Source of the DNA: Saccharothrix violaceirubra | Lineage (GTDB): Bacteria; Actinomycetota; Actinomycetes; Mycobacteriales; Pseudonocardiaceae | Length of the DNA: 64,000 nucleotides | Direction of reading: 5' to 3' | Assembly: GCF_014203755.1 (NCBI RefSeq) | Contig: NZ_JACHJS010000001.1 | Span: 2,604,001-2,668,000 of the forward strand | Shown: positions 41,301 to 55,867 of the stretch, piece after piece | How positions within the stretch are numbered: position 1 is the stretch's first letter | Layout of the letters: every line of letters begins with the position of its first letter | Translations under genes and position numbers: made by a program | Notes under the pieces: model-generated | The model's database searches: none | Told to the model about the DNA's origin: nothing | Seen by the model: the letters and a program-made list of their open reading frames with translations, nothing else

Positions 41301-42116
41301 GGGAGCGGTCGGGGTGGGCCTTCGGGACGCCGGCCGCCCGGCTTGGGGGTCGGTGGCGTCGGGTGGTCCGGGGTCGTGCGGGGTCGTGGTGCGGTGGTCG
41401 GGCCGTCGGGATGTCGACGGCCGGGCTCGGGAATCGGTCGAGGTCGGTCGACCCGAGTCGCGCGGGGGTGGGGTGGCGGCTGTGCCCGGCACGGTCGAGG
41501 TGGGCCGGTCGGCCGTGGCGTCGGAATCCGCCACCGGGTCGGGCCCGGTCCGGTCGGGAACGGGGCGGTGGTGGGCAGGCCGGTCGAGGGCGGGGCGGTC
41601 AGGGGTGGACCGCCCGGGTACCGGCCGGTCGGGGCGGCGGGAATGGGTCCGTCCGGTGCCGGTGCGGTCCTGGTGGTCGGGTTCGTGCTGGTCAGGCGTG
41701 GTGGAGTGGGTGCGGCCGGGCGTGTTTCGGATCGGGTCCGTGCCAGTCGACGGGGTGGTTGCGGGGGAGTCGCGGCGGCGGTCGGCGGCCAGTTCGGCCA
41801 GCAGGGCGTCCTCGGCCAGGCGGCGGGAGACGGCGGCCGGGCGCAGGTCGCCGAGCACCGACTTCTGCGCGAGCTTCAGCTCCCGCAGCGTGAACGACGC
41901 CGGGCACGTCGGGCACACGACCGCGGCCTGGAGCTGTTGGCGACCGCGGTCCGGGTGCGCGCGGTACAGGCCGTGCAGTTCGCCCGAGCACGTGGGGCAA
42001 CTCCGGTCCAGCGGCACGGGCGAGAGCTGCCAGCCCGGTTCCGCGTAGCGGGCGATCGCGGGTTCCGGGCGGACGCCCCAACGCGCCTCGACCACGCCCG
42101 CCACCGACGTGTCCAC
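38334..42116 (-). CDS. Ski2-like DEAD/DEAH helicase with N-terminal zinc ribbon
   Basis: A 1260-aa superfamily 2 helicase. An N-terminal zinc ribbon (Cys40-x2-Cys43 and Cys68-x2-Cys71) is followed by an Asp/Pro/Ser/Thr/Arg-rich low-complexity region (about residues 110-345). The helicase core has motif I APTGAGKTT (about residue 510), motif II VDEIH (about 613), motif III GLSATVS, motif V-like ATSTVAAGVNLPA and motif VI QMFGRAGR. A Ski2/Hel308-like C-terminal helical region follows. It should unwind nucleic acid in an ATP-dependent way; repair or RNA turnover is likely. The GTG at 42116 has GGTGAG upstream. It converges with the pseudokinase gene 38 bases away. Confidence 0.87.
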   Translation of the reverse strand: MDTSVAGVVEARWGVRPEPAIARYAEPGWQLSPVPLDRSCPTCSGELHGLYRAHPDRGRQQLQAAVVCPTCPASFTLRELKLAQKSVLGDLRPAAVSRRLAEDALLAELAADRRRDSPATTPSTGTDPIRNTPGRTHSTTPDQHEPDHQDRTGTGRTHSRRPDRPVPGRSTPDRPALDRPAHHRPVPDRTGPDPVADSDATADRPTSTVPGTAATPPPRDSGRPTSTDSRARPSTSRRPDHRTTTPHDPGPPDATDPQAGRPASRRPTPTAPDTGHPAPSPHDRRHTTPDTATIAAAAGDTDRTPTSPRDSGPGGSGARPPGRRLSTIAMAARIRSVLGGSEPAAAKAAAPELPPGVAASVDPRPVWWCKSADPDLAVPDLGADVDARVLLPDLPAFDGLRARLDARGVPHRSVRHWVEHETVVAGRAQAALSQLGGVVADDCEPVGGDGAVAARLAFETAWNLHDPVAASVPDPVPVPARWARYLPFPLLNPAQAQAAPHLLDGDSHVVVTAPTGAGKTTMGMLAVLRAVLDEGRKAAWLVPQRSLTDELDRELETWRDQGLRVERLSGEYAVDVEAVKAADLWVATTEKFEAICRASSLQAAIGEVGCLVVDEIHLLGSPGRGALLEALLARVRGADSPVRIVGLSATVSNAAELAEWLEADLVTTTWRPSRVTWQLPTLPASSAFGASGRLREQAVVDLVHRHTAERGSVLVFCGSKRNVRSTAMAVAAERGAAVHTVAADDADGLARVCAEVGVRLHYAGYEHRHAAERAFRSREADVLVATSTVAAGVNLPARAVIVRDTTIGGEPLDTSTVLQMFGRAGRVGAGETEGWSYLLVDETERAAWQTRLVSGYAVYSRIRESLPDHVLAEVLQGRITTVDDAAAWWVETLAHAQGDDDAEPVREAVDFLVDEGHLTADGDRLAITEPGRLTARMMVSTAIGHRLRRTLGLLPVPTDPDSAEDALCLVLSVAVRDLAGLPVPEHVRPAVATVIKAGGRTSRITGTTSVKGLGSQATTAPGDLAWAGLLLAARSPHVFTSRRRVAGGIPLSTLYPVYDQAPRFLAWLAAQGVLGTVHPWIAIVAADLDQRVRWRTLGARRGSGRLLWMCEQLATRATDRVPDLWRSATARGVTSPDWPPGRSPAGSQLDHAGYTALLRERATTASLTTNPDTGTATGLPGASIVAWRGDTFTTPVHGKSHTTTVPYPEGTDPDTGIAVFTRRGDYRATGWLSDYHATNNKEEDETEPPPPRSLGRRRTP

Positions 42117-42288
42117 CCGCTCACCACCCCTCCGTCACCTCTCTGGCACGCGTCCGCACCGCGACTTTAGGCGGTGGCACCGACAGCGAAGACCGCACCC
42201 GAAACGCACCAGGAGCAGAACCGGACCACGACCCGACGGCCGAGAACCTGGTGACACAACGAAATCCACCGGATACAGGGAGTCGGAA

Positions 42289-42777
42289 ATGAACATCATC
42301 GCCCGCCGCATCGCCACCGCCGCCATCGCCACCGGCATCGCCGTCACCGCGTTCCTCAGCGCGAACGCCGCCGCGAACGCCGCCACCACGCCCCCCAGCT
42401 TCGAGGCCCAGGTGCTGACCCTGACCAACAAGGAGCGCGCCACCGCCGGCTGCCCGGCCCTCGCCGCGAACGCCCAGCTCAACGCCTCGGCCAAGGCCCA
42501 CAACGACGAGATGGCCAAGACCGGCAAGATGACCCACACCGGACTGGACGGCAGCACCCCGTCGCAGCGCATCGACAACGCCGGCTACTACTGGAAGATG
42601 GCGGGCGAGAACGTCGCCGTCGGCCAGAAGACCCCGGAGCAGGTCGTCAAGGACTGGATGAAGAGCCCGGCCCACCGCGCCAACATGCTCAACTGCGGCT
42701 TCAAGGACCTGGGTGTCGCCTACACCGTCGACGCCAAGAAGAAGGCGTACTGGACCCAGAACTTCGGCACCCGCTGA
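42289..42777 (+). CDS. Secreted CAP (SCP/PR-1) domain protein
   Basis: A 162-aa secreted protein: signal peptide (residues 1 to about 31, cleavage near ANAAANA), then one CAP domain with the characteristic HNDEMAKTGKMTHTG and GENVAVGQ segments, the HRANMLN box and a C-terminal YWTQNFG. Two Cys (ATAGCPAL and MLNCGF) fit the conserved disulfide. CAP proteins act extracellularly, often binding lipid or cell-wall material; the exact function is unknown. The ATG at 42289 lies after an AGGGAG sequence. Three bases separate its stop from the convergent response-regulator gene. Confidence 0.9.
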   Translation: MNIIARRIATAAIATGIAVTAFLSANAAANAATTPPSFEAQVLTLTNKERATAGCPALAANAQLNASAKAHNDEMAKTGKMTHTGLDGSTPSQRIDNAGYYWKMAGENVAVGQKTPEQVVKDWMKSPAHRANMLNCGFKDLGVAYTVDAKKKAYWTQNFGTR

Positions 42778-42780
42778 CCG

Positions 42781-43464
42781 CTAGCGCGAGTCGTAGCGGT
42801 ACCCCATCCCGCGTGCGGCCCGGATCGGCGAATCATCGGCCGACCAGCCCAGCTTGCGCCGCAACCGCATCACCGCGAACTTCACCTTCTCCGCTCCGAT
42901 CCCCGTAGGGTCGTTCCAGACCTTGTCCATCAACTGCACGGGTGAGAGCACAGCCCCCCGATGCTGGACGAAGACCGCGAGCAGCTTGTACTCGGTGGCG
43001 TTGACCTCCACTTCCGCCCCGTTGACGAACACCCGACGTGCCCGGTGGTCCAACCGCACCACGCCGTCGTCGTAGACGTCCCCCTTGTCACCACCACCGG
43101 CCGACTCGGCCCGCCGCAGGATCGCGTCGATCCTGGCGAGCAGTTCCTTCGCCGAGAACGGCTTGGTGAGGTAGTCGTCCGCCCCACCCCGCAGGCCCCG
43201 CACCTTGTCGGCCTCCATGCCGTGGGCGGTGAGCAGCAGAACGGGAACATCGCTCACATCCCGGATGCGCTCCAGCACCATCCAGCCGTCCATCACCGGC
43301 AGGCCGATGTCCAGCAGCACCAGCGCCGGTTTGGCATCGTGGAGTCTGCGCAGCCCGGTCTTGCCGTCCTCGGCCACGAGCACCTCGTGGCCCTCGGCTT
43401 CGAGATTGAGCCGCAACGCCAACGCGATGTCCGGTTCGTCCTCCACCACGAGCACGGTGCTCAT
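42781..43464 (-). CDS. OmpR/PhoB-family response regulator
   Basis: A 227-aa two-component regulator. The receiver has the acidic pair ED at residues 8-9, acceptor Asp52 (LVLLDIGLP) and LTKPFSAKEL with the conserved Lys. The C-terminal winged helix (about 130-227) ends RAARGMGYRYDSR. ATG 43464 has GGGGAGGG upstream. The gene is divergent from a sensor kinase (start 43664), its probable partner. Targets are unknown. Confidence 0.92.
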   Translation of the reverse strand: MSTVLVVEDEPDIALALRLNLEAEGHEVLVAEDGKTGLRRLHDAKPALVLLDIGLPVMDGWMVLERIRDVSDVPVLLLTAHGMEADKVRGLRGGADDYLTKPFSAKELLARIDAILRRAESAGGGDKGDVYDDGVVRLDHRARRVFVNGAEVEVNATEYKLLAVFVQHRGAVLSPVQLMDKVWNDPTGIGAEKVKFAVMRLRRKLGWSADDSPIRAARGMGYRYDSR

Positions 43465-43663
43465 CGACTGGCCCTCCCCACCACGGAAAGTGTCACCTTA
43501 CGAAGCGGGAGACCGGTCCGATCCGTAATGGGCTTGGTACGACGTTTTTTCACCGGTTCGAGTGGAGCCTGCCGATCCACCCGGTGCGGCTCGACCGGAG
43601 ATGCGGTCGTTTCACGATGAGGTGGTGTGCCGCCGCCCCACTTGCCCGCCCGGGAGACCGACC

Positions 43664-45397
43664 ATGCGCGATCACCAGTCCGACCCGTTCGACGTCGCCG
43701 CCGCCGTGCGCGTCGTCACCCGGGCCGGTCGCACCGCGCGCACAGCCGCCGTCGAGGTGCTGATGTCGGTGCCGGGGGTGCGGTCCGCACGGGTGGCCGG
43801 CGAGAAGCCGTGGCTCGGCGACGTCGTGGTGCCGCTCGAACTCGGCGGCGCGCTCGTCGTGACGTCCGACGAGGTGGACGGCCGGCTCGAGACCCTGGTC
43901 GACGCGGTGGCCGCCGCGTTGGACGCGGTCCGCTTCCCCAGCGACGGCGAGACGTTGCGCGACGCGGTCATCGCGGAGATGCCGGCGATGGTCTGCCTGT
44001 TCGACCCCGAGGGCCTGCTGTCCTGGTCGAACCTCGTCCGGTGGCCCGACGGCACCCCGTTGCACTACGGCGAGTCACGGCTGGACGCGATCGCGACCCA
44101 GGTTCATCCCGACGACCAGGCGGACGTCACCCGGTTGATGGGCGAACTCGCGCCAGGTGACACGGCGCGCTTCTCCGCCCGGGTGCGGAAGGACAACGGC
44201 GGGTGGCAGGTCCTCGACATCACGCTGCTGGAGCGCACCAACGACCCGGTGATCCACGGCATGGTCGCGTTCGCCAACGACGTGACCGCGCTGCACGAGG
44301 CCGAAGACCGGGTGCGCGCGACCGTGACCCGGCTGTCTTCACTGGTCGAAGCCCTGGACGTGGGCGTACTCGTGCAGGACGCCGAGGGGCGGCTGCTGGT
44401 GTCGAACACCGCGCTGGGCGCGATCGCCGGTCTGTCCGGCGCACCCGAGGACATGGTGGGCATGGCCCGGGACGAGCTGCGCACGCTGCGGACCCGGCCC
44501 GAGGCCGACTACGCGCGGCTGGACCAGTTGTCGCAGCGGTGCATGCAGGACCGCATCCCGGTGCACGGCGTGGTCGTGCCGTTGGGCGACGACCGGGCGC
44601 TGGAGCTGGACTTCCTGCCGATCGGCCTCGACGACCGGGGCCTCGGGCAGATGTGGGTGCTGCGGGACATCACCGAGCAGGTCGGGCTGCGACAGGCGCT
44701 GGAGCGGCGCAACGCGGAGCTGTCGCGGCTGTCGTCGTTGAAGACCGAGTTCCTGTCGGTGGTGTCGCACGAACTGCGCACGCCGCTGACCGCGTTGACC
44801 TCGCTGACGCCGGTGCTCGTCGCGGACCAGCCGGACGGGATACGGGTGGTGGCCGAGGCGGTCGAGCGCAACGTGACGCGGATGGCCACGCTGGTCGAGA
44901 CGCTGCTGTTCCTGGCCGGGGTCGAGTCGCACAGCCTGGAGATGGCGACCATCGACGCGGACGCGGACGTGCTCGTGCGCATGGAGGTGGACGCGTTGCG
45001 CGCACTGGCCGCGACGTCGTCGGTCACGCTGGAGCTGGAACCGGCACCGGAGCGCACCCTCGTGCACGCCGACCCGGCGCTGTTCAGCCGCATGGTGCAC
45101 CACGTCGTCGCCGCCGGGATCGGGTCGTCGCCGGCCGGCGGGCGCGTGAAGGTGCGCACGAGCGCGCGGCGGCCGGGTGTCTGGGCGGTCGAGGTGACCG
45201 ACCAGGTGCCGCTGACCGTGCAGGCCGGTCGCCTGTTCACGACCGTGCCCCGGGGCAACCGCAGTCCGGATCCGCTGATCGGCTCGGGGCTCGGGCTTGC
45301 CCTGGCCAGGGCGATCGCCGAACGGCACGGCGGCGCGATCTACCTCGAACCGTCGCCCGAGGGCGGTACGACGGTCCGGGTCGAACTCCCGGCCTGA
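43664..45397 (+). CDS. PAS-containing sensor kinase with degenerate ATP-binding domain
   Basis: A 577-aa cytoplasmic sensor with no transmembrane helix. Two PAS domains (about 95-225 and 225-340) precede HisKA with His369 in VVSHELRTP. The C-terminal domain keeps a G2-like box (GSGLGLALARAIAERHGG). However, the N box is lost (HHVVAAGIGSS instead of NLLxNAxKx) and the G1 DxGxG reads VTDQVPLT. It may be unable to bind ATP normally and could act as a phosphatase, scaffold or partner of another kinase. ATG 43664 follows CGGGAGA. It is divergent from the OmpR-type regulator. Confidence 0.82.
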   Translation: MRDHQSDPFDVAAAVRVVTRAGRTARTAAVEVLMSVPGVRSARVAGEKPWLGDVVVPLELGGALVVTSDEVDGRLETLVDAVAAALDAVRFPSDGETLRDAVIAEMPAMVCLFDPEGLLSWSNLVRWPDGTPLHYGESRLDAIATQVHPDDQADVTRLMGELAPGDTARFSARVRKDNGGWQVLDITLLERTNDPVIHGMVAFANDVTALHEAEDRVRATVTRLSSLVEALDVGVLVQDAEGRLLVSNTALGAIAGLSGAPEDMVGMARDELRTLRTRPEADYARLDQLSQRCMQDRIPVHGVVVPLGDDRALELDFLPIGLDDRGLGQMWVLRDITEQVGLRQALERRNAELSRLSSLKTEFLSVVSHELRTPLTALTSLTPVLVADQPDGIRVVAEAVERNVTRMATLVETLLFLAGVESHSLEMATIDADADVLVRMEVDALRALAATSSVTLELEPAPERTLVHADPALFSRMVHHVVAAGIGSSPAGGRVKVRTSARRPGVWAVEVTDQVPLTVQAGRLFTTVPRGNRSPDPLIGSGLGLALARAIAERHGGAIYLEPSPEGGTTVRVELPA

Positions 45398-45579
45398 GTG
45401 GCGTAGATCACGGCAACCTTCGTCTGAGTGAACGATCGGTTACCGTTGGTCCAACGGCCGGTGTCGTGGCCGTACTTGGGGGATCGACCGCATTCGCACG
45501 CCCGGCACGCTCCGGGCGCAGCCGGTGTGCGTTCGTGGCGCGATCACAACTGAAGACAGGAATCGGGGGATTCTTGACC

Positions 45580-46908
45580 ATGGCGAAACTCATCATCGCC
45601 AACAGCCGCACAGAAGAGATGGTCGGCGACCTTTCGCTGCTCACGCCGGACGAGCGCGTCGCCGGCGGGTGGGGTGCGCAGCGCCTGTTCTGGTTCGCGT
45701 CCGACGGCGACGTGCTCGTGCTGCCGTGGGTCGCCCAGGACCGGTACGTGGACTACGTGCTCGGCCTGACCGGCACCGACCGGGCGAGCCTGACGCTGGT
45801 CGTGCCGCCCACCGGGTACCTGGGCGAGGAACTGCTCACGCCCGACCGCCTGGCGGACGAGGGGTTCCGCGCGCGGCTGCGGGAAGCGTTGGCGGGCAAG
45901 GGGATCGACCGGATCGTGACGGCCTACGACGACGCGTACGTCGTGGACCTCGCCAAGCACCTGGGCATCGAGCACGCGCTGCCCGGCTTCGCCTTCAGCG
46001 AGCAGGGCGGCGACGCGCTGGTCAACAGCAAGGCCGCGTTCCGCGCGGTGGCGGCGGGCGTGGGCGTGGCGATCGCGCCCGGCACGATCGCGGGCCGCCC
46101 GGAACTCGCCGAGAGCACGATCGGCGCGATCCTCGGCCGCGGCGACAGCGTGATCGTGAAGAAGGAGTTCGCCGGCGGCGGGTTCGGCAACGAGATCCTG
46201 GCGACCGACGCGACCGTACGGCCCGCCGGCGCGCGCAACGTCGTGCTGCTGGCCGACGCGGACGCGATCAAGGCGTACGTCGCCGAGAAGTGGTCGTGGC
46301 TCACCGGCGGGCGGGACGACCGGCTCGTGATCGAGCAGTACTTCACCGGCTCGGCGACCGTGTACGCGGAGTTCGTCGTGGCCGACGACGCGAGCCACCT
46401 GCTGGGCACGGGGGAGATCCTCATGGAACCCGTGGCGATCGGCGAGATCGTGCCGCCGCGGTCGATCACGCCCGAGCAGCACGTCGAGCTGGTGGACGCC
46501 GGACGCCGGTTGTGCGACGCCTTCCGGGGACTGGGCTACCGGGGCAACATCAGCGCCGACGCGATCCGGACCGGGGACGGGCGGATCGTGTTCAGCGAGA
46601 CCAACGGGCGGCTGACCGGGTCGACCCACCTGCACGCCGTGCTGCGGGACCGCATGCTGCGCCCGGATTTCCGGGGCGAGCGGGTCATGGTGGAACGGGC
46701 GGTGTGGAGCGTGCCGTCGTTCGAGGGCGCGGTGGACGCGCTCGTCGCGGCCGGGCTCGCGTTCGACCCGGAGACCGGGACCGGCGTCGTGCTGACCGGG
46801 AACTACGTGCCGGTCAACGGCAAGGTCATGTACTGCGTGGTGGGCAAGGACTTCGAGTCCGCCGAGGCGGTCGCGGCGTCCCTGGCGGGCTTGGCGGTCG
46901 CCCGATGA
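45580..46908 (+). CDS. preATP-grasp/ATP-grasp peptide ligase (PGM1-like)
   Basis: A 442-aa ATP-grasp enzyme. Residues 1 to about 130 form a preATP-grasp domain (LIIANSRTEEMVGDLS at the start). The ATP-grasp fold follows (about 145-370) with VIVKKEFAGGGFGNE as the nucleotide-binding loop and FSETNGRLTGSTHL as the Mg-binding Glu/Asn segment. The layout matches the peptide ligase PGM1 of pheganomycin biosynthesis, which joins an N-capping non-proteinogenic amino acid to a peptide by acyl-phosphate chemistry. It is followed by an overlapping amidinotransferase and an MFS exporter, so it probably makes a guanidino-capped dipeptide or peptide. ATG 45580 is chosen; GGGGGA lies nine bases upstream. 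Confidence 0.87.
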   Translation: MAKLIIANSRTEEMVGDLSLLTPDERVAGGWGAQRLFWFASDGDVLVLPWVAQDRYVDYVLGLTGTDRASLTLVVPPTGYLGEELLTPDRLADEGFRARLREALAGKGIDRIVTAYDDAYVVDLAKHLGIEHALPGFAFSEQGGDALVNSKAAFRAVAAGVGVAIAPGTIAGRPELAESTIGAILGRGDSVIVKKEFAGGGFGNEILATDATVRPAGARNVVLLADADAIKAYVAEKWSWLTGGRDDRLVIEQYFTGSATVYAEFVVADDASHLLGTGEILMEPVAIGEIVPPRSITPEQHVELVDAGRRLCDAFRGLGYRGNISADAIRTGDGRIVFSETNGRLTGSTHLHAVLRDRMLRPDFRGERVMVERAVWSVPSFEGAVDALVAAGLAFDPETGTGVVLTGNYVPVNGKVMYCVVGKDFESAEAVAASLAGLAVAR

Positions 46909-48011
46909 CGGTCGGGCAACTGGTCACCGGCCACGACGGGGCGGCGACGCGTCCGGCCGTGCACTCGTGGGACGAGTTCACCGCGTTGCACGAGGTGGTC
47001 GTGGGCGACGCGACCGGCGCGCACCTGCCGGACCTGGTGCGGGACCGGTCGGCGTGGCTCAACTACTACCCGGACCTGGACGCGTCGTCGCTCCGTGAGG
47101 TCCACAGTGGACTGATGCCGCGGTGGATCGTCGACGAGACGAACGAGGACCTCGCCGGGTTGGTGGAGGTGCTGGAGCAGTTCGGCGTGACCGTGCGCAG
47201 GCCCGCGGTCGTGGACCACGCGGCGGGGTTCGGCACGCCGGAGTGGTCCACGACGGGGTTCAGCTGCTACTGCCCGCGTGACCTCACGCTGGTCGTCGGG
47301 TCGACGCTGATCGAGACGCCCAGTCCGGCGCGGTCGCGGTACTTCGAGCAGTTCGGGTTGCGCCCGCTGTTCCAGGACTACCTGCGGCAGGGCGCGACGT
47401 GGCTGGCCGCGCCGCGCCCGCGACTGGCCGACGAGCTGTTCCCGCTCGACGCGGACGGCCTGCCGTACCTGGGCGAGGCCGAGGCCGCGTTCGAGGCGGC
47501 CAACGTGCTGCGGCTCGGCCGGGACGTGCTCTACCAGGTGTCGCGCAGCGGCAACGAGGCCGGCCTGCGCTGGCTGGAGTCGACGCTGCGGCTGCTCGGC
47601 GACGTGCGCGTGCACCCGTTGCGTGACGTCTACGGGTACACGCACATCGACAGCACGATCGCGTTCCTGCGGCCGGGACTGGTCCTGCTCAACCCGTCGC
47701 GGATCACGCCGGCGGAGATCCCGGCGCCGCTGGCGGGCTGGGACGTCGTGTGGTGCCCGCCCGTCGAGGACCGGCCGATGGCGGCGGCGCACGGCCTGAG
47801 CGGGCCGTGGATCAGCATGAACCTGCTGATGCTCGACGAGCGGCACGCGGTCGTGGACGCCGACCAGCCCGCGCTGCTGCGCGCGTTGGAGCGGCACGGC
47901 ATCACGGTCGTGCCGCACCGGCTGCGGCACCAGCGGGTGCTCGGCGGCGGGTTCCACTGCGTCACCCTCGACGTGGTGCGCGCCGGTGGTCCGGAGAACT
48001 ACCTCGACTGA
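46905..48011 (+). CDS. Glycine/arginine amidinotransferase-family enzyme
   Basis: A 368-aa protein of the arginine:glycine amidinotransferase family, which moves the amidino group of arginine to an amine through a covalent Cys intermediate. The catalytic Cys352 is in GGGFHCVTLD; His247 (YGYTHIDST) fits the conserved His, and the propeller repeats are preserved (for example VVVGDATGAHLPD and NVLRLGRDVLYQ). The acceptor is presumably the amine of the amino acid or peptide handled by the upstream ligase. ATG 46905 overlaps the ligase stop (ATGA), so the enzymes are co-translated. The same enzyme pairing is known from pheganomycin, resorcinomycin and ketomemicin pathways. Confidence 0.9.
   Translation: MTVGQLVTGHDGAATRPAVHSWDEFTALHEVVVGDATGAHLPDLVRDRSAWLNYYPDLDASSLREVHSGLMPRWIVDETNEDLAGLVEVLEQFGVTVRRPAVVDHAAGFGTPEWSTTGFSCYCPRDLTLVVGSTLIETPSPARSRYFEQFGLRPLFQDYLRQGATWLAAPRPRLADELFPLDADGLPYLGEAEAAFEAANVLRLGRDVLYQVSRSGNEAGLRWLESTLRLLGDVRVHPLRDVYGYTHIDSTIAFLRPGLVLLNPSRITPAEIPAPLAGWDVVWCPPVEDRPMAAAHGLSGPWISMNLLMLDERHAVVDADQPALLRALERHGITVVPHRLRHQRVLGGGFHCVTLDVVRAGGPENYLD
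47101..47111. repeat. TCCACAGTGGA palindrome, copy 4
   Basis: Fourth exact copy of the 11-bp palindrome, inside the amidinotransferase gene. A near copy (last base changed) is at 48960-48970 in the exporter gene. Confidence 0.5.
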
Positions 48012-48023
48012 AGGCGGACGACG

Positions 48024-49268
48024 TTGTTCCACGCGGTGAAGCGCACCCCGTACTGGCCGGTGCTGACGCACCCGGTGTTGCGCAAGGTGTTGCCGGGCAT
48101 CGGGGTGTCCAGCATCGGCGACGGCATGAGCACGATCGCGATCGCGTGGCTGGCGCTGCTCCTGGCACCCGCAGACCAGAAGGGGCTGTGGGTCGCGCTG
48201 GCCGCGGCGGCGTACGTGCTGCCCGGCGCGATCGGCGCGGTGGCGTTCGAACGGTGGCTGCGCGGCCGGTCCGGCGCGCAGCTCGCCGGGTGGGACGCCG
48301 TGCTGCGGGCGGTGGTGCTGGGCGCGATCGCCGTCGTGCACTTCGTCGGCCTGCTCACGCCGATGGTGTTCGTGGTGCTGCTGGCGGTGTCGTCGCTGCT
48401 GGCCGCGTGGGGCAAAGCCGGGCGGTACACGCTGCTGGCCGAGCTGCTGCCCGAGGAGCACGTGCTGGCGGGCAACGCCGTGGTCAACGTGCTGCTGGAG
48501 TTCTCGACGGTCGGCGGGCCGCCGCTGGCGGCGTTGCTGATCGCGTGGGCGGGCCCGGCGGCGGTGATCGCGCTCGACGCGGCCACCTTCGCCGTGCTCG
48601 CCCTGACCTACCGCGCGGCCGTGCCGCCGTCGGCGCGGGAGACCCGGATCAAGGCGCCGGCGTCCCGGTCGACCGGGCTGCGGACCATCCTGTCGAACCC
48701 GGAACTGGTCGGGTTGATGGTGCTGTCGTTCGGGTTCTTCCTGTTCTTCGGGCCGGTGACGGTGGCCCTGCCGGTGCACGTGTCGGAGGACCTGCACGGG
48801 ACGGCGGTGCAATTGGCCGGGTACTACACGGCGTTCGGCATCGGTGCGGTGCTGGGCGCGATCGTGGCCGGGTACCTGAAGAACTGGCCGATGCGCGTGA
48901 CGACGGTCGGCATCGTGCTGGGCTTCGGGCTGGCACTGCTGCCGTTGGGGTTGAGTCCGTCCACTGTGGTCGGATGGATCGCGTTCGGTCTGTGCGGCCT
49001 GATCTGGGGGCCGTTCCCGTCGACCACGACGGTGCTGTTCCAGCGGGCCGTGCCGGCGGACGGGCTGGCTCCCGTGCTGGCCGCGCGCGGAGCCGTGATG
49101 TCGTTGGCGGGTCCGGCGGGCGCGCTCGTGGGCGCTCCGGCCGTGGTGTTGTTGACGGCGCAGGGCACTCTCGCCGCGGCGGCCGTGGGCATGATCGTGC
49201 TGGCGGGCCTGACCGCGGCGTTCTTCCTGGCGTCGCATCGGAAGCGGGTCGTGGACGTGGTCGGCTGA
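48024..49268 (+). CDS. MFS exporter of the ligase/amidinotransferase locus
   Basis: A 414-aa major facilitator superfamily protein with about 12 hydrophobic helices and a central charged loop (RAAVPPSARETRIK). The N-terminal segment GIGVSSIGDGMSTIAIAWLALL is typical of the drug-exporter group. The TTG at 48024 has AAGGCGG upstream; the GTG at 48036 is the other possible start. It begins 12 bases after the amidinotransferase gene, so it probably exports the product and gives self-resistance. Confidence 0.85.
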   Translation: MFHAVKRTPYWPVLTHPVLRKVLPGIGVSSIGDGMSTIAIAWLALLLAPADQKGLWVALAAAAYVLPGAIGAVAFERWLRGRSGAQLAGWDAVLRAVVLGAIAVVHFVGLLTPMVFVVLLAVSSLLAAWGKAGRYTLLAELLPEEHVLAGNAVVNVLLEFSTVGGPPLAALLIAWAGPAAVIALDAATFAVLALTYRAAVPPSARETRIKAPASRSTGLRTILSNPELVGLMVLSFGFFLFFGPVTVALPVHVSEDLHGTAVQLAGYYTAFGIGAVLGAIVAGYLKNWPMRVTTVGIVLGFGLALLPLGLSPSTVVGWIAFGLCGLIWGPFPSTTTVLFQRAVPADGLAPVLAARGAVMSLAGPAGALVGAPAVVLLTAQGTLAAAAVGMIVLAGLTAAFFLASHRKRVVDVVG

Positions 49269-49308
49269 GCGGCGGTCGCCTGACTTTTTCCTCTCGCGAG
49301 GAATCGTC

Positions 49309-49404
49309 ATGTTGATCCGATCGGGCCTATGCGGCACTTGTCGGTGCCCATGGGTTCGACCCCGTGCACGCCTTGGGGAAGGCGAATCGCACAGGGGGAA
49401 TTGA
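49309..49404 (+). CDS. Possible 31-codon leader peptide before the nuclease gene
   Basis: A short ORF starting at ATG 49309 with GAGGA at 49298-49302, six bases before the start. Its stop (49402-49404) lies two bases before the nuclease ATG. The predicted peptide starts MLIRSGLCGTCRCPW and contains a CxxCxC cluster. The overlapping hairpin TTCCTC-TCGC-GAGGAA (49288-49303) could hide its RBS. It may be a regulatory leader coupling translation to the nuclease gene, or a chance ORF. Confidence 0.35.
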   Translation: MLIRSGLCGTCRCPWVRPRARLGEGESHRGN

Positions 49405-49406
49405 AT

Positions 49407-50831
49407 ATGTGGAACAGCCGAATACGCCGTGCTTCGACGGCGGTGATCAGTGCTGCGCTGATCGTCCTGGGAGGACTTCCGGTCGCGGCCCATGCCTCGC
49501 CGGCGGACGAGACCGAGTCGGCCGAGGTCTATGTGATCGAGGACGGCGAAACCGCCAGGGCCGTCGCTTCGGCGGCCGATCCCGGTGCTGCGGCCAAGGC
49601 GGCGGGTATCGCGCCGTTACCGCAGGTGGGGGATGAGGCAGTCAGGTCGGAAGTGGCAGTTTCCGCGGCGGAGGAATCCTACGTCGTCGACAGCGAACGG
49701 TTCGACCGCGGTGCCAAGCCGGAAGATCCGTACCAGTACGCGGATCGCGACCAGTGCCGGTCGAACGAGAAGTCCGACCGTTACCAGGGGTGGATCAAGA
49801 ATCGCTATTCCTACTGCAAGGTCGAACTGGTCTACGTACCCGTCGTCAGTTGCAGCATCTTTCCGCCCCGATGCGCTGTCCGGGACGAGTACCTGGCATG
49901 GCACACGGTCGTCGGAGAGGGGAAGATCGGTTCGTACCGGGCTGATTCGTTCGACCGCTGGGCACGTTTCACCATCCACGTCTCGCCGGTGACGATCATC
50001 GGTCGGTTCGGCACGTCGGGTGCGCGGTTGGCCGTCGGCATGGAGTGCGAGGGCCGCTATCGCGACCCGGTACCCAGGACGCCGAGGGCCGCGTGCCGCA
50101 CAGGCGAGGAGAACGGTCGCGACGACACGGTTCCGGGGTGGCGGGCCAACGGCGAGGCGACGATCGAGTTGGTGTCCGAGGCGGACAAACCGGCGGCCGA
50201 GCGCACCGCCCAGATCGCGATCGGCATCTTCAAGCCCAGGATCAACCTGAGTTGGCAACCCCTGGGCAGGCGCAACTGGCGGATGCCGGAAGGCGGGATG
50301 CGGTTCGACAGTGCCTGGTACGCCTCCCAGGCGACGGCAGAGCAGCTTGGTTCGGTATTCGACCGGGCGCGATCCGGAATGAGCTACCGGCTCGGCGACC
50401 CGAAGGTCGCCGGACTGGCCGCACACATCGACGACGCCCGGCGCAATCCCGACGGCACCCTTCCACCGGCGTCCGGGAAGCGGTTGCCGGGAGCGACGGC
50501 GGACGACCCGATTCGTCGGCTCGCCCGCCGTGCCGGGCAGGCGCAGGCCGATCGGTACCAGGACAACATCGACCTGACCCGGAACGGCTACTGCCGGACC
50601 GGTATGCCCCCGAAACCGCCCACGGGTTCGTTCGACTGCGACGAGTATCCGTTCGCCTCCACTTGTGAAGGGGCAGGCCGGGCCAAGCACGAAGGTGCGC
50701 AGTACAAGGACGCCTGGTCGGTACGCTGGGTCGACAGCGGTCAGAATCAGGAAGGCGGTCGTCGTCTTGGACGCTGGTACGCGAACGATCGTCTTCTCGA
50801 CACGGATCCGTTCTTCGTGACGACACCCTAG
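49407..50831 (+). CDS. Secreted protein with C-terminal NucA/NucB-type nuclease domain
   Basis: A 474-aa exported protein. The signal peptide spans residues 1 to about 31 (cleavage after AHA). The middle part (about 80-390) is unassigned, with Cys-containing beta segments. The last 80 residues match the NucA/NucB DNase domain: FDCDEYPFASTCEG (Cys411, then Asp-Glu), then NQEGGRRLGRWYANDRLLDTDPFFV. Members degrade DNA outside the cell or during lysis. The long extension could be a delivery or toxin-type region. ATG 49407 has GGGGGA upstream. G+C looks slightly lower than in neighbouring genes. A strong hairpin follows the stop. Confidence 0.8.
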   Translation: MWNSRIRRASTAVISAALIVLGGLPVAAHASPADETESAEVYVIEDGETARAVASAADPGAAAKAAGIAPLPQVGDEAVRSEVAVSAAEESYVVDSERFDRGAKPEDPYQYADRDQCRSNEKSDRYQGWIKNRYSYCKVELVYVPVVSCSIFPPRCAVRDEYLAWHTVVGEGKIGSYRADSFDRWARFTIHVSPVTIIGRFGTSGARLAVGMECEGRYRDPVPRTPRAACRTGEENGRDDTVPGWRANGEATIELVSEADKPAAERTAQIAIGIFKPRINLSWQPLGRRNWRMPEGGMRFDSAWYASQATAEQLGSVFDRARSGMSYRLGDPKVAGLAAHIDDARRNPDGTLPPASGKRLPGATADDPIRRLARRAGQAQADRYQDNIDLTRNGYCRTGMPPKPPTGSFDCDEYPFASTCEGAGRAKHEGAQYKDAWSVRWVDSGQNQEGGRRLGRWYANDRLLDTDPFFVTTP

Positions 50832-50840
50832 GTTTGTTCG

Positions 50841-50872
50841 TGCCGTCCGGACGCCAAGGCGTCCGGACGGCA
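50841..50872. terminator. Bidirectional terminator after the nuclease gene
   Basis: Perfect 15-bp inverted repeat (50841-50855 with 50858-50872) between convergent genes, ten bases after the nuclease stop. Confidence 0.8.
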
Positions 50873-50891
50873 TCGGCGTCGACCTGCTGGC

Positions 50892-51314
50892 TCAAGCGGG
50901 CCAGAAGCTGACTAATGCGTACGCCTCGGGTTCGGTTGTCGACGGGGGTGCGGGTCGCCAACCCAGGCGGGCGCGGTAACGGCCTGCGGGGACCGTGAAC
51001 ACGGGTCCGGTCACGCCCGCGACTCCTTCGTCCACGGTGAAGACGCCGCTCGGCAGGTGCAGGTCGATCTCGGTGGAGTGAGGCCATTGTGCGCTGTCGA
51101 GCGGTGGCCGGTCGGTGTGCCACTCCAGGTGGAGCCGAGCCCGGACGATGTCCTCCTCGCTCTGGAACATGACGAGCGAATCGCCCGCCGCGAACCACGC
51201 GCCGGGATCGGGGATCGGGGTGTCCTCCGTCGAGTCCGGATCACCCACTCCGAACCAGTGGTGTTCCACCAGGACGTCGATCTCGGTCGACGCTTCCAAC
51301 TCGGCCACGGTCAT
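50892..51314 (-). CDS. Hypothetical 140-aa protein
   Basis: A 140-aa acidic, cytoplasmic, beta-rich protein that I do not recognise (WFAAGDSLVMFQSEEDIVRAR is a distinctive segment). No signal peptide or membrane helix. ATG 51314 has GAGAGGCGGG upstream. It converges with the secreted nuclease gene, and an acidic small protein next to a nuclease invites the idea of an immunity protein. However, opposite orientation and a terminator between them argue against an effector-immunity operon. Confidence 0.6.
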   Translation of the reverse strand: MTVAELEASTEIDVLVEHHWFGVGDPDSTEDTPIPDPGAWFAAGDSLVMFQSEEDIVRARLHLEWHTDRPPLDSAQWPHSTEIDLHLPSGVFTVDEGVAGVTGPVFTVPAGRYRARLGWRPAPPSTTEPEAYALVSFWPA

Positions 51315-51420
51315 CCCGCCTCTCGTGGATCGGATGGGTCATCGTGGCGCATCCGCACGGAGGTCCGGGGAGGAATCGGGAGGACTGGTCCAGCGCGAGG
51401 CCGGACCAGTCCCCGGTCCG

Positions 51421-53808
51421 TCAGGGTGTCCAGACCACGTCCACCCAGTAGTTGCTGCCGCCCACGCTCCGGTCCGGGAAGCCGGCGCCGATCTGGAACA
51501 CGCCGTTGCCGCCCTCGGCTCCGTGTTGGGGTGCCGTGAGCGGTTCCTGTTGGCGTGGGGCGTGCGAGAAGTACTCCACGTCCGCCGAGAAGTGGCCCGT
51601 CGGCGTCAGGTACGACACGATGTACGTCGTGTTCGCCTGTACGTTCACGGGCGTGCCGAACGTCAGCGTCTGCCAACCCGACGAGGTCTCGCCGGTGAAC
51701 GTGCCGGTCGCCAGCAGTTGACCCGACGTGGTCCACAGCGAGCCCGTGTGCACGCCGGAGTTGTTGGGCCCCTTGAAGAACCGCACGCCGCGTACCTGAC
51801 CCGCCGTGGACGCCTTCCACTTCACGCCCAGTTCCAGGGCGATGCCGTCACTGAGGTCCAAAGCACGCGGTGTGTCGGAATCGGTGAACAGGCCGCACGG
51901 GCACGGTTTGGGCACGACCACGTGGGTCGTCGCCACCGGCACCGAGAGGTTCAGGGAATCGTCCACGGCCCGCACGCGCAACTGTGCCGTCCCCGAAGCC
52001 AACGGCGTGTACGTGTAGCTCCACGTCCCCTGCCCGGCCTGCCAGGACGCGGGGTGCCAGCGACTCCCGCCGTCCGTCGACACCTCGACCCCGGCCACCT
52101 GTCCGGCGTCCGACACCGTGCCCGAGAACGTGTAAGGCACGCCGACCGCCGCGCCGACCGGCACGGACGTGTAGGCGACGGAAGGTGCCGTCGAGTCCGT
52201 GGTGGGCGCCGTCTGCACCAGACCCGGGCGCAAGGTCCCGCCCTGCACTCCCATGTCCGCCAGGAAGTTCACGGTCGCCTGCTGGAGGCGGACGTCCGAC
52301 GTCGGCGTCAACGTCTTGTAGGCGTGCTCGTCGTCGAGCCCCCACGCCCACTGCACCGTGCCCGCGCCGAACACCAAAGACCCGCTCGGGTGCTTGTAGT
52401 ACGTGATCGCGTGCGTGGCGGTGCCGCTGCCGTACACGTCGCCGTGGTTCTCCAGGATGTACTGGCCCTGCATGGTCACGCTCGTGCGCGAGAACTGCCC
52501 GACCCCGGCGGGCTGGAAGCCGTTGTCCGGCACGGTGTTCCACTCGTAGCCCAACGTGCCCGGCTGGAACGTCACCGTGTCGCCGGCCGCCAGGTTCGGC
52601 AACGTGGTCTCCCGCCACAGCCGCAGCTTGCCGTACGCGGCGGGCACCTGAAGCGAGTCCGTACGCCGTCCGTTGACCGTGAAGATGTTGCCCAGCAACG
52701 CGTTCTCCGGCCGTCCGCCGTCCTGCGGCGGGCTGTACCGGGGATCGCGCCACGTGCCGGTCCAGTCGGGGAGTCCGTCGTTCTGGCTGCCCTTGGTCTC
52801 CTTGAAGGAGGCGATCGTGCGCCAGTCGGTCTGGGACGAGTCGGTGCTCTTCTCCCACCGGGTCTTCCAGAAGATCTCGTTGCCGGTGAGGAACGCCAGG
52901 TGCACGCCCGCGTCCCGGGCCGCCTCGACGTTGGCGCGCTGCTCGTTCGACCAGTACTCGTCGTGGCCCACGGCCATGAACACCCGGTGGTTGGTGATCA
53001 GGTGGCCGCGCCGGGCGGTGTCCGCGTCCGTGGTGTAGCTCAGGTCGTACCCGTTGGACTCCAGGAACCGCAGCATCGGGTACTCGGCGTTGAAGATCGT
53101 GTTGTCGTCGCCGTCGCCCCCGGTGTTCGGCCGGTTGTAGGAGACCTTGAACGCCTGCCCGCCCGAACCCGGCCCGTCGCCGAAGTACAGGCTGTTGCCG
53201 CCGTACCGGTTGTACGCCTGCCACGTCGAGTCCGACGTCTGGAACAGGATCTTCGAGTGGCTGGTGTCGTCGCGCACGACGAACGCGATCTCGTTGCGCC
53301 CGCCGTTGTCCGACCGGGTCAGCCGCGCGTAGTAGAGGCCGGACACGGCGTCGGCGGGCACGTCCCAGCCGACGGAGACCGCCCAGTTGCCGCAGTCGAT
53401 CAACGCCGTGGGCCCGTCGCGCAGGCAGTCCGGCTGGGTCTGCGGCGTGGTACGGGCGACCGTGCCGATCAGCCGGGCGCCGCGCCCGCCGTACCAGCCG
53501 AGCCGGAACACGTCGACCGTGTAGCCGGGCGCGTCGGTCTTGACCTTGAAGTCGACCCGGCCGCCCGGCGTCGCGCTGATGTCGGTGGTGAAGCCGACGA
53601 CGGTCGGGTCGCGGTAGGCGACCTGCCAGTCCTGGGCTCCGGTCTTCGTGTTCTCGCAGGCCACCGCGTTGACCACGGGCTCGTCGCAGGGCGCGACGGG
53701 CGCCGACTCGGCGGCCGGGACGACGACGAGGGCGGCGGCGACGGCCGCCACGAGCGGCCGGGTCACCGCCGCCCGCACTCTCCGGCGCCGACGGGGAGAC
53801 CACACCAT
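51421..53808 (-). CDS. Secreted dimethylformamidase-beta-like protein with DUF4082
   Basis: A 795-aa exported protein. A long signal sequence with an Arg run (residues 5-10) and a hydrophobic core precedes a large N,N-dimethylformamidase beta-subunit-like region (about 80-510; segments VFRLGWYGGRGARL, FMAVGHDEYWSNEQR). An Ig/FN3-like domain (about 535-635) and a DUF4082 beta-sandwich (about 645-795, VKWKASTAGQVRGVRFFK) complete it. Such multidomain proteins are common in actinomycetes, but their substrate is unknown; glycan or amide hydrolysis is a guess. GGAGGAG lies directly before ATG 53808. The 128-base spacer 53809-53936 downstream of the regulator gene shows no further feature. Confidence 0.82.
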   Translation of the reverse strand: MVWSPRRRRRVRAAVTRPLVAAVAAALVVVPAAESAPVAPCDEPVVNAVACENTKTGAQDWQVAYRDPTVVGFTTDISATPGGRVDFKVKTDAPGYTVDVFRLGWYGGRGARLIGTVARTTPQTQPDCLRDGPTALIDCGNWAVSVGWDVPADAVSGLYYARLTRSDNGGRNEIAFVVRDDTSHSKILFQTSDSTWQAYNRYGGNSLYFGDGPGSGGQAFKVSYNRPNTGGDGDDNTIFNAEYPMLRFLESNGYDLSYTTDADTARRGHLITNHRVFMAVGHDEYWSNEQRANVEAARDAGVHLAFLTGNEIFWKTRWEKSTDSSQTDWRTIASFKETKGSQNDGLPDWTGTWRDPRYSPPQDGGRPENALLGNIFTVNGRRTDSLQVPAAYGKLRLWRETTLPNLAAGDTVTFQPGTLGYEWNTVPDNGFQPAGVGQFSRTSVTMQGQYILENHGDVYGSGTATHAITYYKHPSGSLVFGAGTVQWAWGLDDEHAYKTLTPTSDVRLQQATVNFLADMGVQGGTLRPGLVQTAPTTDSTAPSVAYTSVPVGAAVGVPYTFSGTVSDAGQVAGVEVSTDGGSRWHPASWQAGQGTWSYTYTPLASGTAQLRVRAVDDSLNLSVPVATTHVVVPKPCPCGLFTDSDTPRALDLSDGIALELGVKWKASTAGQVRGVRFFKGPNNSGVHTGSLWTTSGQLLATGTFTGETSSGWQTLTFGTPVNVQANTTYIVSYLTPTGHFSADVEYFSHAPRQQEPLTAPQHGAEGGNGVFQIGAGFPDRSVGGSNYWVDVVWTP

Positions 53809-53936: not shown

Positions 53937-54692
53937 TCAGCGCGCGAGGTCCGCCGAGATCAGACCCGCGCAGTCCAGCAGCGGTGGCACGAGTTCGGCA
54001 CGGGCGCGCTCGAGCGTCGTGCGGGCCGCGTGCGTGGACACGTTCACGGCCGCGACCACGCGACCGGCCCGGTCGCGCACCGGGGCGGCCACGGACCGCA
54101 GGCCCTCCTCCAACTCCTGGTCGGCCAACGCCCACCCGCGCGTCCGCACCGTCGCCAGTTCGGCGCGCAGCGCCTCGGCCGAGGTGACGGTGTGCCCGGT
54201 GAACGAGGTGAAGTCGGTCGACGCCAACCGGTCGGCCTGGTCGTCGGGGTCCAGCCCGGCCAGCAGCACGTGGCCCATGGACGTGGCGTGCGCCGGGAAC
54301 CGCGTGCCCACGGTGATCGACACGGTCATGATCCGCGACACCGCGCACCGCGCCACGTACACGACGTCCACCCCGTCGAGCACGGACACCGAGCACGACT
54401 CGCCGACCCGTGCGGACAGCCGTTCCAGGTGCGGCTGGGCCACGTCCGGCAGCGCCATGCCGGACAGGTACGCGTAGCCCAGGTCGAGCACGCGTGCGGT
54501 CAGCGAGAAGTGGCGCCCGTCCGCCCGCACGTAGCCCAGTTCGCACAGCGTCAGCAGGAACCGCCGGGCCGCCGCCCTGGTCAGCCCGGTGCGCCCGGCC
54601 ACCTCGGTGAGCGTCAGCGCGGGCGCGTCCGCGCCGAACGCCTTGATCACCGCGAGGCCGCGTTCCAACGACCGCACGTGCTCCACGCTCAC
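53937..54692 (-). CDS. IclR-family regulator of the ketoadipate operon (PcaR/PcaU-like)
   Basis: A 251-aa IclR-family regulator with the winged HTH LTEVAGRTGLTRAAARRFLLTLCELGYV and an effector domain (about 75-245) containing GTRFPAHATSMGHVLLA, typical of the PcaR/PcaU/PobR branch. It is the last gene of the operon: GTG 54692 overlaps the thiolase stop (GTGA). Two tandem GTTC-N7-GAAC sites upstream of the first gene are the likely operator. Induction by beta-ketoadipate or protocatechuate is inferred from the family. Confidence 0.88.
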   Translation of the reverse strand: MSVEHVRSLERGLAVIKAFGADAPALTLTEVAGRTGLTRAAARRFLLTLCELGYVRADGRHFSLTARVLDLGYAYLSGMALPDVAQPHLERLSARVGESCSVSVLDGVDVVYVARCAVSRIMTVSITVGTRFPAHATSMGHVLLAGLDPDDQADRLASTDFTSFTGHTVTSAEALRAELATVRTRGWALADQELEEGLRSVAAPVRDRAGRVVAAVNVSTHAARTTLERARAELVPPLLDCAGLISADLAR

Positions 54693-55867
54693 GCCTCCAG
54701 CACCACGGCCAAGCCCTGGCCGACGCCGATGCACAGCGCGGCCAGCCCCCAGCCGCCGCCGCGCCGCCGCAGCTCGTGGGCCAACTGCGTCAGCACGCGC
54801 CCGCCGGACGCGCCGAGCGGGTGGCCCAGCGCGATCGCGCCGCCGTTGACGTTGACGAGCGCGGGGTCCAGTTCCGGCCAGGAGTCCAGGCACGCCAACG
54901 ACTGCGCGGCGAACGCCTCGTTCAGCTCCACCGCCGCCAGGTCCGACCAGCCGATGCCGGCCCGGCGCAGCGCGACGTTCGCGGCCTCGACCGGTCCGAT
55001 GCCGAACACGTGCGGGTCGACGCCCGCCGCGCCGCGTCCGGCGACGCGGGCCAGGGGCACGGTGCCCCAGCGCCCGGCGGCCGTGTCGGTGCCCAGCAGC
55101 ACGGCGGACGCGCCGTCGTTGAGCGAGGACGAGTTGCCCGCCGTGACCGTCCCCTGTGGACGGAAAGCGGGCTTGAGCGAGCCGAGCTTCGCCAGGCTCG
55201 TGTCGGCGCGGACGGTCTCGTCGCGGTCCAGGTCCGTGTCGGGCACGGGTGCGACGTGGCTCGCGTAGAAGCCGTCGTCCCACGCGCGGGCCGCGAGTGT
55301 GTGGCTGCGCAACGCGAATTCGTCCTGCCGCGTCCGGTCGATGCCGTGGCGTTCGGCCAGCAGTTCGGTGCTCTCGCCCAGCGACACGGTCCACTCGGCG
55401 GGCATCGCCGGGTTGGTCATCCGCCAGCCCAGCGTGGTCGAGTGCAGCGTGGCGTCGCCGGCCGGGAAGCCCTTCGCGGGCTTGGGCAGGACCCACGGCG
55501 CCCGGCTCATCGACTCGACACCGCCCGCGACCACGAGGTCCGCGTCGCCCACCGCGATGGTCCGCGACGCCTGCATGACCGCGTCCAGGCTCGACCCGCA
55601 CAGCCGGTTCACGGTCGTGCCGGGCACGGCCGTCGGCCACCCGGCCAGCAGCGCGGCCAGCCGGCCGACGTTGCGGTTGTCCTCGCCCGCCTGGTTGGCC
55701 GCGCCGAACACGACCTCGTCGACCGCGGCCGGGTCGATCCCGGTGCGGTCCACGAGCGCGCGCAGCACGTGCGCGGCCAGGTCGTCGGGCCGGACGTGCG
55801 CCAACGCACCGCCGAACCTGCCGAACGGGGTGCGCACGCCGTCGAGCACGTACACGTCGGTGGTCAC
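54689..55867 (-). CDS. pcaF: Beta-ketoadipyl-CoA thiolase / acetyl-CoA acyltransferase
   Basis: A 392-aa thiolase II. The acyl-accepting Cys is in VNRLCGSSLDAVM; the later active-site segments are NVNGGAIALGHPLGASGG (His) and ALCIGVGQG (Cys). It cleaves beta-ketoadipyl-CoA to succinyl-CoA and acetyl-CoA if the CoA-transferase next to it acts on beta-ketoadipate. GTG 55867 overlaps the upstream stop. The pca assignment rests on gene order with CoA-transferase and IclR; other aromatic pathway genes are not in this window. Confidence 0.87.
   Translation of the reverse strand: MTTDVYVLDGVRTPFGRFGGALAHVRPDDLAAHVLRALVDRTGIDPAAVDEVVFGAANQAGEDNRNVGRLAALLAGWPTAVPGTTVNRLCGSSLDAVMQASRTIAVGDADLVVAGGVESMSRAPWVLPKPAKGFPAGDATLHSTTLGWRMTNPAMPAEWTVSLGESTELLAERHGIDRTRQDEFALRSHTLAARAWDDGFYASHVAPVPDTDLDRDETVRADTSLAKLGSLKPAFRPQGTVTAGNSSSLNDGASAVLLGTDTAAGRWGTVPLARVAGRGAAGVDPHVFGIGPVEAANVALRRAGIGWSDLAAVELNEAFAAQSLACLDSWPELDPALVNVNGGAIALGHPLGASGGRVLTQLAHELRRRGGGWGLAALCIGVGQGLAVVLEA

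Follow-up and report, generated by a model that had tools for sequence, protein, structure and literature searches.

Three adjoining genes for an ATP-grasp ligase, an amidinotransferase and an MFS transporter lie together in the 64,000-nucleotide stretch of Saccharothrix violaceirubra DNA that we analysed (the window), and on balance we favour the view that they form an export cassette, complete in itself, for a peptide amidinated at its N terminus. The same trio is found alone in several unrelated actinomycetes, and it is therefore probably a small natural-product pathway.

The three genes and their protein families

The presence, reading frames and orientation of the trio were confirmed (Table 1). 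The initial annotation had described three genes, two of them overlapping, and this was borne out at the exact coordinates: all three are open and run in the same direction, and the ligase and amidinotransferase genes overlap by 4 bp. The gap between the amidinotransferase and MFS genes is 12 bp, and the MFS gene begins with TTG, although its start might lie 4 codons later, given that the protein database entry for this transporter is 410 aa long. Comparison of the window with two relatives gave dN/dS values of 0.22-0.31 for the ligase, amidinotransferase and MFS genes, and in all three genomes of this comparison the full-length genes are under purifying selection. Together with the adjacency of the three genes in nine loci described below, these values rule out a chance grouping.

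Table 1. Positions of the trio and of the dyad codon within the window.
Feature	Position	Strand	Basis
PGM1/KtmD-type ATP-grasp peptide ligase, 442 aa	45580..46908	+	PreAtp-grasp and PGM1_C domains; PGM1 structure match
StrB1/AGAT-family amidinotransferase, 368 aa	46905..48011	+	StrB1 match, E 3.1e-91
Amidinotransferase Glu197 codon, aligned to AGAT Asp254	47493..47495	+	Position computed from the gene start
MFS (DHA3-like) efflux transporter, 414 aa, probable product exporter	48024..49268	+	MFS_1 and MFS_3 above cut-off

The protein families named at the outset (ATP-grasp ligase, amidinotransferase, MFS) were likewise upheld by Pfam and structure homology. The ligase exceeded the Pfam cut-offs for both PreAtp-grasp (88.7 bits) and PGM1_C (54.6 bits), its best solved structure was PGM1 (3wvq, E 3.9e-100), and K151, K194, E252, D327, E340 and N342 do not vary across an alignment with PGM1 among its members; judged by homology, it is a PGM1-type ATP-grasp peptide ligase. 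A second PGM1_C protein in the genome (L003) was set aside, as it belongs to an IQCH-like ATP-grasp family and lies in a different neighbourhood. The amidinotransferase gave no match in a Pfam search at E 0.01; besides StrB1 it matched AGAT with an E of about 1e-58, and it is the genome's only match of its kind at E 1e-5. Its His247, Asp249 and Cys352 are kept in all 159 aligned rows, and its sequence identifies it as a homologue of the AGAT/StrB1 amidinotransferases with the catalytic Cys and His present. The transporter scored 73.2 bits against MFS_1.

Recurrence of the trio and its ketomemicin-type relatives

Genome mining for the same trio, as the initial annotation had suggested, covered 59 loci searched for the trio and for ktm genes with a ktm match threshold of 80 bits. 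The trio recurred as a stand-alone unit in nine of them, with all three genes present and ktmA, B, C and F giving no match above that threshold. A further 22 distinct loci were of the ktm type, with ktmA, B, C and F present and the cassette-type MFS absent, no MFS match above 80 bits being found in the part of their flanks that was covered. The nine cassette loci come from several families and have mostly unrelated flanks, while their cassette genes mostly overlap or are closely spaced, in the order ligase-amidinotransferase-MFS (three loci) or MFS-ligase-amidinotransferase (six loci); an MFS homologue adjoins the two enzyme genes in 9/9. At one of them, L009, the amidinotransferase is split across two frames.

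Among enzymes of known context, those most closely related to the cassette pair are the ligase of the ketomemicin pathway and one of its amidinotransferase classes. The ketomemicin cluster of Micromonospora sp. ATCC 39149 has a ktmD-type ligase and a ktmE-type amidinotransferase that are 55% and 69% identical, respectively, to those of the window, which differs from it in lacking ktmA, B, C and F (no match above 80 bits in the entire window), in having an MFS gene, and in having Glu in place of Asp as the dyad acid. The genome holds no orthologues of ktmA or ktmB, whose best matches reach 35% and 30%, and lacks a type III PKS (0 matches to PF00195), so that the claimed absence of phenylglycine- or ketone-forming genes holds in the window for ktmA, B, C and F and in the genome for ktmA, ktmB and type III PKS.

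Of the three pathways first proposed as relatives, ketomemicin stands, its ligase and amidinotransferase being the closest of known context, whereas pheganomycin and resorcinomycin are not the nearest. The resorcinomycin cluster contains a PGM1-type ligase plus an amidinotransferase. Pheganomycin also involves a ligase of the PGM1 type, and its cluster is reported to include an amidinotransferase (PMC8939145); in contrast to both systems, the genome analysed here has no type III PKS and no shared small ORF lies near the trio.

When the ligase tree was rooted, the ligases of the nine cassettes grouped with nine from metagenomes (those paired with Glu-type amidinotransferases) in a single clade (98/95) inside the ketomemicin-type ligases. 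Placing the remaining 34 ligases (20 from ktm loci and 14 paired with Asp-type enzymes) in one clade was rejected (AU p 0.026), in a test made after the first ligase tree had already pointed to the same result. Since the cassette ligases are nested in this way, the cassette resembles the ketomemicin pathway minus its ketomethylene module. No ligase position strictly separated cassette from ktm enzymes at the first threshold, and relaxed candidates for specificity positions (such as 31, 409, 295, 315 and 198) were discarded as graded between the two groups.

The dyad acid of the amidinotransferase and the MFS linkage

The position of AGAT Asp254, the acid of the catalytic dyad, is occupied by Glu in 9/9 cassette loci and by Asp in all 19 ktm loci that have an amidinotransferase gene, as well as in StrB1 and AGAT. 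The change had escaped the initial annotation. The window enzyme is otherwise ~63-80% identical to others of its class (full-length matches), and its GYT loop before the catalytic His is the same as in 10/10 aligned StrB1-like ktm enzymes; this loop is not found in the six cassettes that begin with the MFS gene.

Glu is not exclusive to the cassette. Among the matches listed (119 of 1443) it occurs in 51 of the 119 amidinotransferase homologues, and exclusivity is ruled out by a Streptomyces locus (L164) that has a Glu-type enzyme and no ligase or MFS match, the gene adjoining those for a carbamoyltransferase, an aminotransferase and TauD. A single Glu clade was rejected in a broader, 86-row amidinotransferase tree (AU p 3.5e-8), but not in a tree of the 43 rows with a known ligase partner (p 0.308), in which the starred branches force one change, one pair is independent, and the bootstrap is not settled. 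Because the 43-row tree does not reject one Glu clade, we do not claim convergent origins of Glu197 within the cassette despite the 86-row result, and the Asp-to-Glu change in the cassette enzymes may have been one event. With Glu as the dyad acid, the amidinotransferase may catalyse an altered reaction, which weighs against the favoured view.

An MFS gene was inferred on the same contig for 8/12 Glu pairs versus 0/15 Asp pairs among the matches listed (120 of 595 for the MFS homologues); this pairing is an inference from contigs of equal size, and chance matches occur, since one contig, of 1666 bases, is too short for both genes. That contig and others of 19785, 5222 and 4657 bases pair an MFS homologue with an Asp-type amidinotransferase, with the ligase not among the matches listed. 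The MFS family as such is not specific to the cassette, many listed homologues being from Micromonospora and Dactylosporangium and having no known linkage. A possible exception to the MFS-Glu link is the Micromonospora polyrhachis ligase P0132, which falls outside the resolved cassette clade of the first tree and whose contig is the same size as that of the MFS homologue P0252. In that tree the ligases of M. polyrhachis and M. sonneratiae branch close to the clade's base, which makes them possible intermediates; the enzyme pair of M. sonneratiae is of the Asp type.

Proposed pathway and alternatives

By analogy with their homologues, the amidinotransferase would transfer the amidino group of Arg to an amino acid at its alpha-amine, yielding an N-amidino amino acid that might be hydrophobic, like those of the ketomemicins. 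The ligase would then convert the carboxylate of this acid to an acyl phosphate and couple it to the amine of either a single amino acid or a short peptide, and the product would be exported by the MFS protein. Given that the ketomethylene genes are absent at the locus and orthologues of ktmA and ktmB are absent from the genome, an ordinary amino acid, or a dipeptide, is the probable acceptor in the ligation. In ketomemicins C, a ketomethylene pseudodipeptide is reported to bear Val, Leu or Ile in N-amidino form (PMC11943689). However, the amidinated residue of ketomemicin is not transferable to the cassette, since the Salinispora clusters behind these structures use an AGAT-like amidinotransferase class other than that of the window, and the MFS-first cassettes lack GYT.

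A published precedent for the trio, absent from the initial annotation, is found in Streptomyces varsoviensis and relatives, where varL, varP and varS of the thiovarsolin cluster encode the same three protein types (PMC6511847), a likeness drawn by annotation only; these genes adjoin varA, Y, T and O, whereas the window trio stands alone. Deletion of the three left thiovarsolin production unaffected and revealed no further metabolite related to thiovarsolins, a result that weighs against the export-cassette view; the authors suggested that thiovarsolins are possibly not final products (PMC6511847). This suggestion, and the location of varL, varP and varS with a RiPP cluster, would be consistent with a tailoring module in which the trio caps a peptide made elsewhere, such as a ribosomal precursor or a thioamide RiPP, with an N-amidino residue. 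PGM1 is indeed described as coupling a nonproteinogenic amino acid to ribosomal peptides, and 47 biarylitide clusters are reported to include Pgm1 homologues (PMC13417212). We nevertheless consider such a module unlikely: a comparison at E 1e-3, which bears on linked and conserved precursors only, showed no small ORF outside the trio to be common to the window flanks (42000-53000) and the other eight cassette loci, and the 30 near neighbours scanned at those eight included neither YcaO or TfuA nor any other RiPP enzyme family.

The Asp-to-Glu change raises the question of whether the amidinotransferase has turned into a hydrolase or deiminase-like enzyme, in a pathway with no amidino product. 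The hydrolases ADI and DDAH, which belong to this superfamily, are reported to support the catalytic His with Glu (PMC11659421), a likeness drawn at the level of residue role, while AGAT and AoaA are reported to use Asp (PMC3684758), and Glu is uniform across the cassette enzymes. The identity to its class and the invariance of His247, Asp249 and Cys352 argue against this, and we judge it improbable. Moreover, ornithine, citrulline and urea are primary metabolites already.

Another possibility is an amine of non-peptide nature as the partner of the amidino acid: in pseudouridimycin, guanidinoacetate is joined to glutaminyl-aminopseudouridine, and PumN (amidinotransferase), PumM (ATP-grasp carboxylate-amine ligase) and PumL (transporter) are described as a similar functional set for a guanidino-acyl amide, the PumL homologue SapE being described as MFS (PMC6586884). 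The scanned window neighbours include no nucleoside genes and the ktm enzymes are the nearest relatives of known context, so that this reading, in which the likeness to the Pum set is one of function, seems very improbable. Finally, an origin of the trio by decay from a ketomemicin cluster, to which the nested ligase and the partial ktm clusters without product reported in Salinispora (PMC11943689) might point, is disfavoured as highly improbable by the identical composition, including the added MFS, in nine loci of several families and by the full-length genes under purifying selection, though the L009 amidinotransferase is split.

Returning to the export cassette, we advance only tentatively a broader reading, in which the trio would be an autonomous pathway to a new and widespread class of N-amidino peptides, derived from ketomemicin biosynthesis by loss of the ketomethylene module, gain of an exporter and Asp-to-Glu re-tuning, with varL, varP and varS being the same cassette. 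If so, these three genes would act on a product of their own and not on thiovarsolins, which offers a testable reason for their being conserved but dispensable. A three-gene, 3.7-kb system should be easily expressed, and its product type is predictable, while the natural Asp/Glu contrast in the dyads of close amidinotransferases could reveal the basis of acceptor choice or of transferase versus hydrolase behaviour.

A recurrent ligase, amidinotransferase and transporter cassette

The initial annotation had described a locus of three genes, for a PGM1-type ATP-grasp ligase, an amidinotransferase and an MFS exporter. This was borne out: in the window (C1:2604001-2668000) the three are co-directional and occupy the stated positions (table), the amidinotransferase being of the StrB1/AGAT family. 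In the 7.35 Mb host genome, a single contig with one amidinotransferase, the best matches to ktmA and ktmB of the ketomemicin cluster (ktmA-F) reach 35% and 30%, and no type III PKS was found.

Coordinates of the cassette genes and of other features of interest
Feature	Location	Strand	Domains or nearest solved relative
ATP-grasp ligase	45580-46908	+	PreAtp-grasp and PGM1_C; PGM1 (3wvq, E 3.9e-100)
Amidinotransferase	46905-48011	+	StrB1 (1bwd, E 3.1e-91)
MFS transporter	48024-49268	+	MFS_1
Protein directly after the trio	49329-50831		C-terminal NucA/NucB nuclease domain
Thiolase and two CoA-transferase subunits	54689-57404	reverse
Second PGM1_C protein of the host genome	L003:9538-11025		IQCH-like ATP-grasp domain
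STAND-type NTPase	L010:15512-17203		nSTAND1
Streptomyces Glu-type amidinotransferase locus	L164:8404-16020

At E <= 1e-30, the ligase was found in 12 of 394 class genomes and 27 of 390 family genomes; at E <= 1e-90, a second family yielded it in 9 of 298 genomes and the Micromonospora group in 13 of 160. A first scan of genome contigs gave 25 loci; neighbourhoods were read, with the window's genome excluded, in 7 of 11 class-set and 12 of 26 family-set genomes, and in all 9 second-family and all 13 Micromonospora-group genomes, with some overlap with those 25. Four duplicate copies of loci already counted (L071-L074) were excluded, and the 59 loci that remained were typed by tblastn searches that used the three proteins of the window and the ktm proteins of Micromonospora sp. 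ATCC 39149 as queries.

The cassette is real and recurrent. Mining for the same trio, as had been proposed, recovered it in 9 of the 59 loci, the others being 22 distinct ktm-type loci, four repeats (L124, L127, L129, L130) and 24 other ligase loci, one of which (L075) has ktmA and cut ktmB matches at its edge. The nine comprise the window, Streptomyces sp. ODS25 (L004), Streptomonospora nanhaiensis (L006), Planobispora takensis (L009, its amidinotransferase split over two frames), Oerskovia douganii (L018), Marinactinospora thermotolerans (L020) and, with putative organism names, Kutzneria chonburiensis (L070), Nocardiopsis mwathae (L114) and Micromonospora profundi (L122). None has a ktmA, B, C or F match above 80 bits, a 28% ktmF match in L020 falling under that threshold; all 22 ktm-type loci carry these four genes, and none has the trio-type MFS in the stretches examined. 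Between the window and the Kutzneria and Streptomyces loci, dN/dS of the three genes is 0.22-0.31.

Ligase descent and the dyad residue

Metagenome ligases and amidinotransferases were paired by contigs of equal size, giving 12 pairs with Glu and 15 with Asp at the position of AGAT Asp254; 9 and 14, respectively, entered the ligase tree, which was rooted with ten outgroup rows, the remainder being loci already included. The nine cassette ligases and all nine from the Glu pairs form one clade (support 98/95) that holds no Asp-paired ligase. The 34 remaining ligases, 14 of them from the Asp pairs and the others from 20 of the 22 ktm loci, are not united in a single clade; a constraint that keeps them together is rejected at AU p 0.026, a modest value given that an earlier tree had already pointed to this grouping. 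On these placements, descent of the cassette from a ketomemicin-type pathway is most likely.

The catalytic residues of AGAT are Asp254, His303 and Cys407 (PMC3684758). Glu197 of the window enzyme aligns with Asp254, and this position is Glu in all nine cassette loci and Asp in all 19 ktm loci holding the gene (L008, L012 and L013 have no amidinotransferase within the stretch examined), in the other aligned loci, and in StrB1 and AGAT. The nine cassette enzymes separate fully from the ten StrB1-like ktm enzymes only at columns 195 and 197, of which 195 is variable in the wider amidinotransferase set; the nine metagenome pairs, chosen by their Glu, are no independent test of the residue. The Asp/Glu split may be a single event, and Glu also occurs in an amidinotransferase without a ligase. 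We infer that the change re-tuned the acceptor or the rate. Related hydrolases place Glu beside His (PMC11659421), and a loss of transferase activity is the weaker explanation.

Local setting

Upstream of the trio lie a response regulator and a histidine kinase, both kept in three same-genus genomes (G458, G449, G460; 86% and 53-54% identity, respectively) that lack the trio despite this conserved pair. In the genus set (25 genomes), identity above 44% is reached only by the ligase of the window's own genome, and the Kutzneria cassette has different flanks. This distribution is consistent with patchy inheritance or with transfer. Of the small ORFs flanking the trio in the window, none is common to the other eight cassette loci, and no RiPP or ketomethylene enzymes were found among 30 near neighbours of those loci. 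The NucA/NucB-domain protein, whose N-terminus resembles a signal peptide, has no match near other cassettes.

Likely product and related loci

Most likely the cassette, as a variant within the ketomemicin/PGM1 kind, makes an N-amidino peptide that is then exported. Related systems are described in PMC11943689 (ketomemicin), PMC6586884 (pseudouridimycin), and PMC8939145 and PMC13417212 (pheganomycin context). Thiovarsolin clusters encode an ATP-grasp protein (varL), an MFS protein (varP) and an amidinotransferase (varS), which PMC6511847 describes as conserved across related clusters, yet dispensable, its authors suggesting that thiovarsolins are perhaps not final products. A stand-alone trio was not recognised in the literature searched, a partial coverage with few subscription papers.

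Ketomemicin-type clusters contain two very different amidinotransferases, StrB1-like in Micromonospora (L007, L005, L021; 69% identity to the window enzyme) and AGAT-like in Salinispora (L011, L025, also L017, L019, L022, L024, L028; 36-37%). In the ligase tree, the two sets of clusters are nonetheless grouped. It looks as if one enzyme class was replaced by another. In 11 of the 25 first-scan loci (L010 and ten further ktm-type loci), a STAND-type NTPase adjoins ktm genes, its nSTAND1 assignment coming from the L010 member, the sole one domain-scanned.

The amidinotransferase query matched 75 of 392 Streptomyces genomes at E 1e-60, and neighbourhoods were read in six (L004, L164-L168). Three of the 75 matches have at least 61% identity: L004, L164 (Glu-type) and L165 (Asp-type), the latter two without a ligase. 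In L164, which also gave no MFS match, the gene lies beside those for a TauD dioxygenase, a class III aminotransferase, a glycosyltransferase and a carbamoyltransferase, perhaps for another guanidino product.

Paired PGM1-type ligases occur as a close divergent pair in L087 (G553) and about 32 kb apart in L075/L076 (G643), one of the latter near ktmA- and ktmB-like genes. Genes for a halogenase-like flavoprotein and for an AMP-binding enzyme share a stretch with that of the second PGM1_C protein of the window's genome. Within the window, the thiolase and CoA-transferase genes form a tight run, as in 3-oxoadipate degradation.
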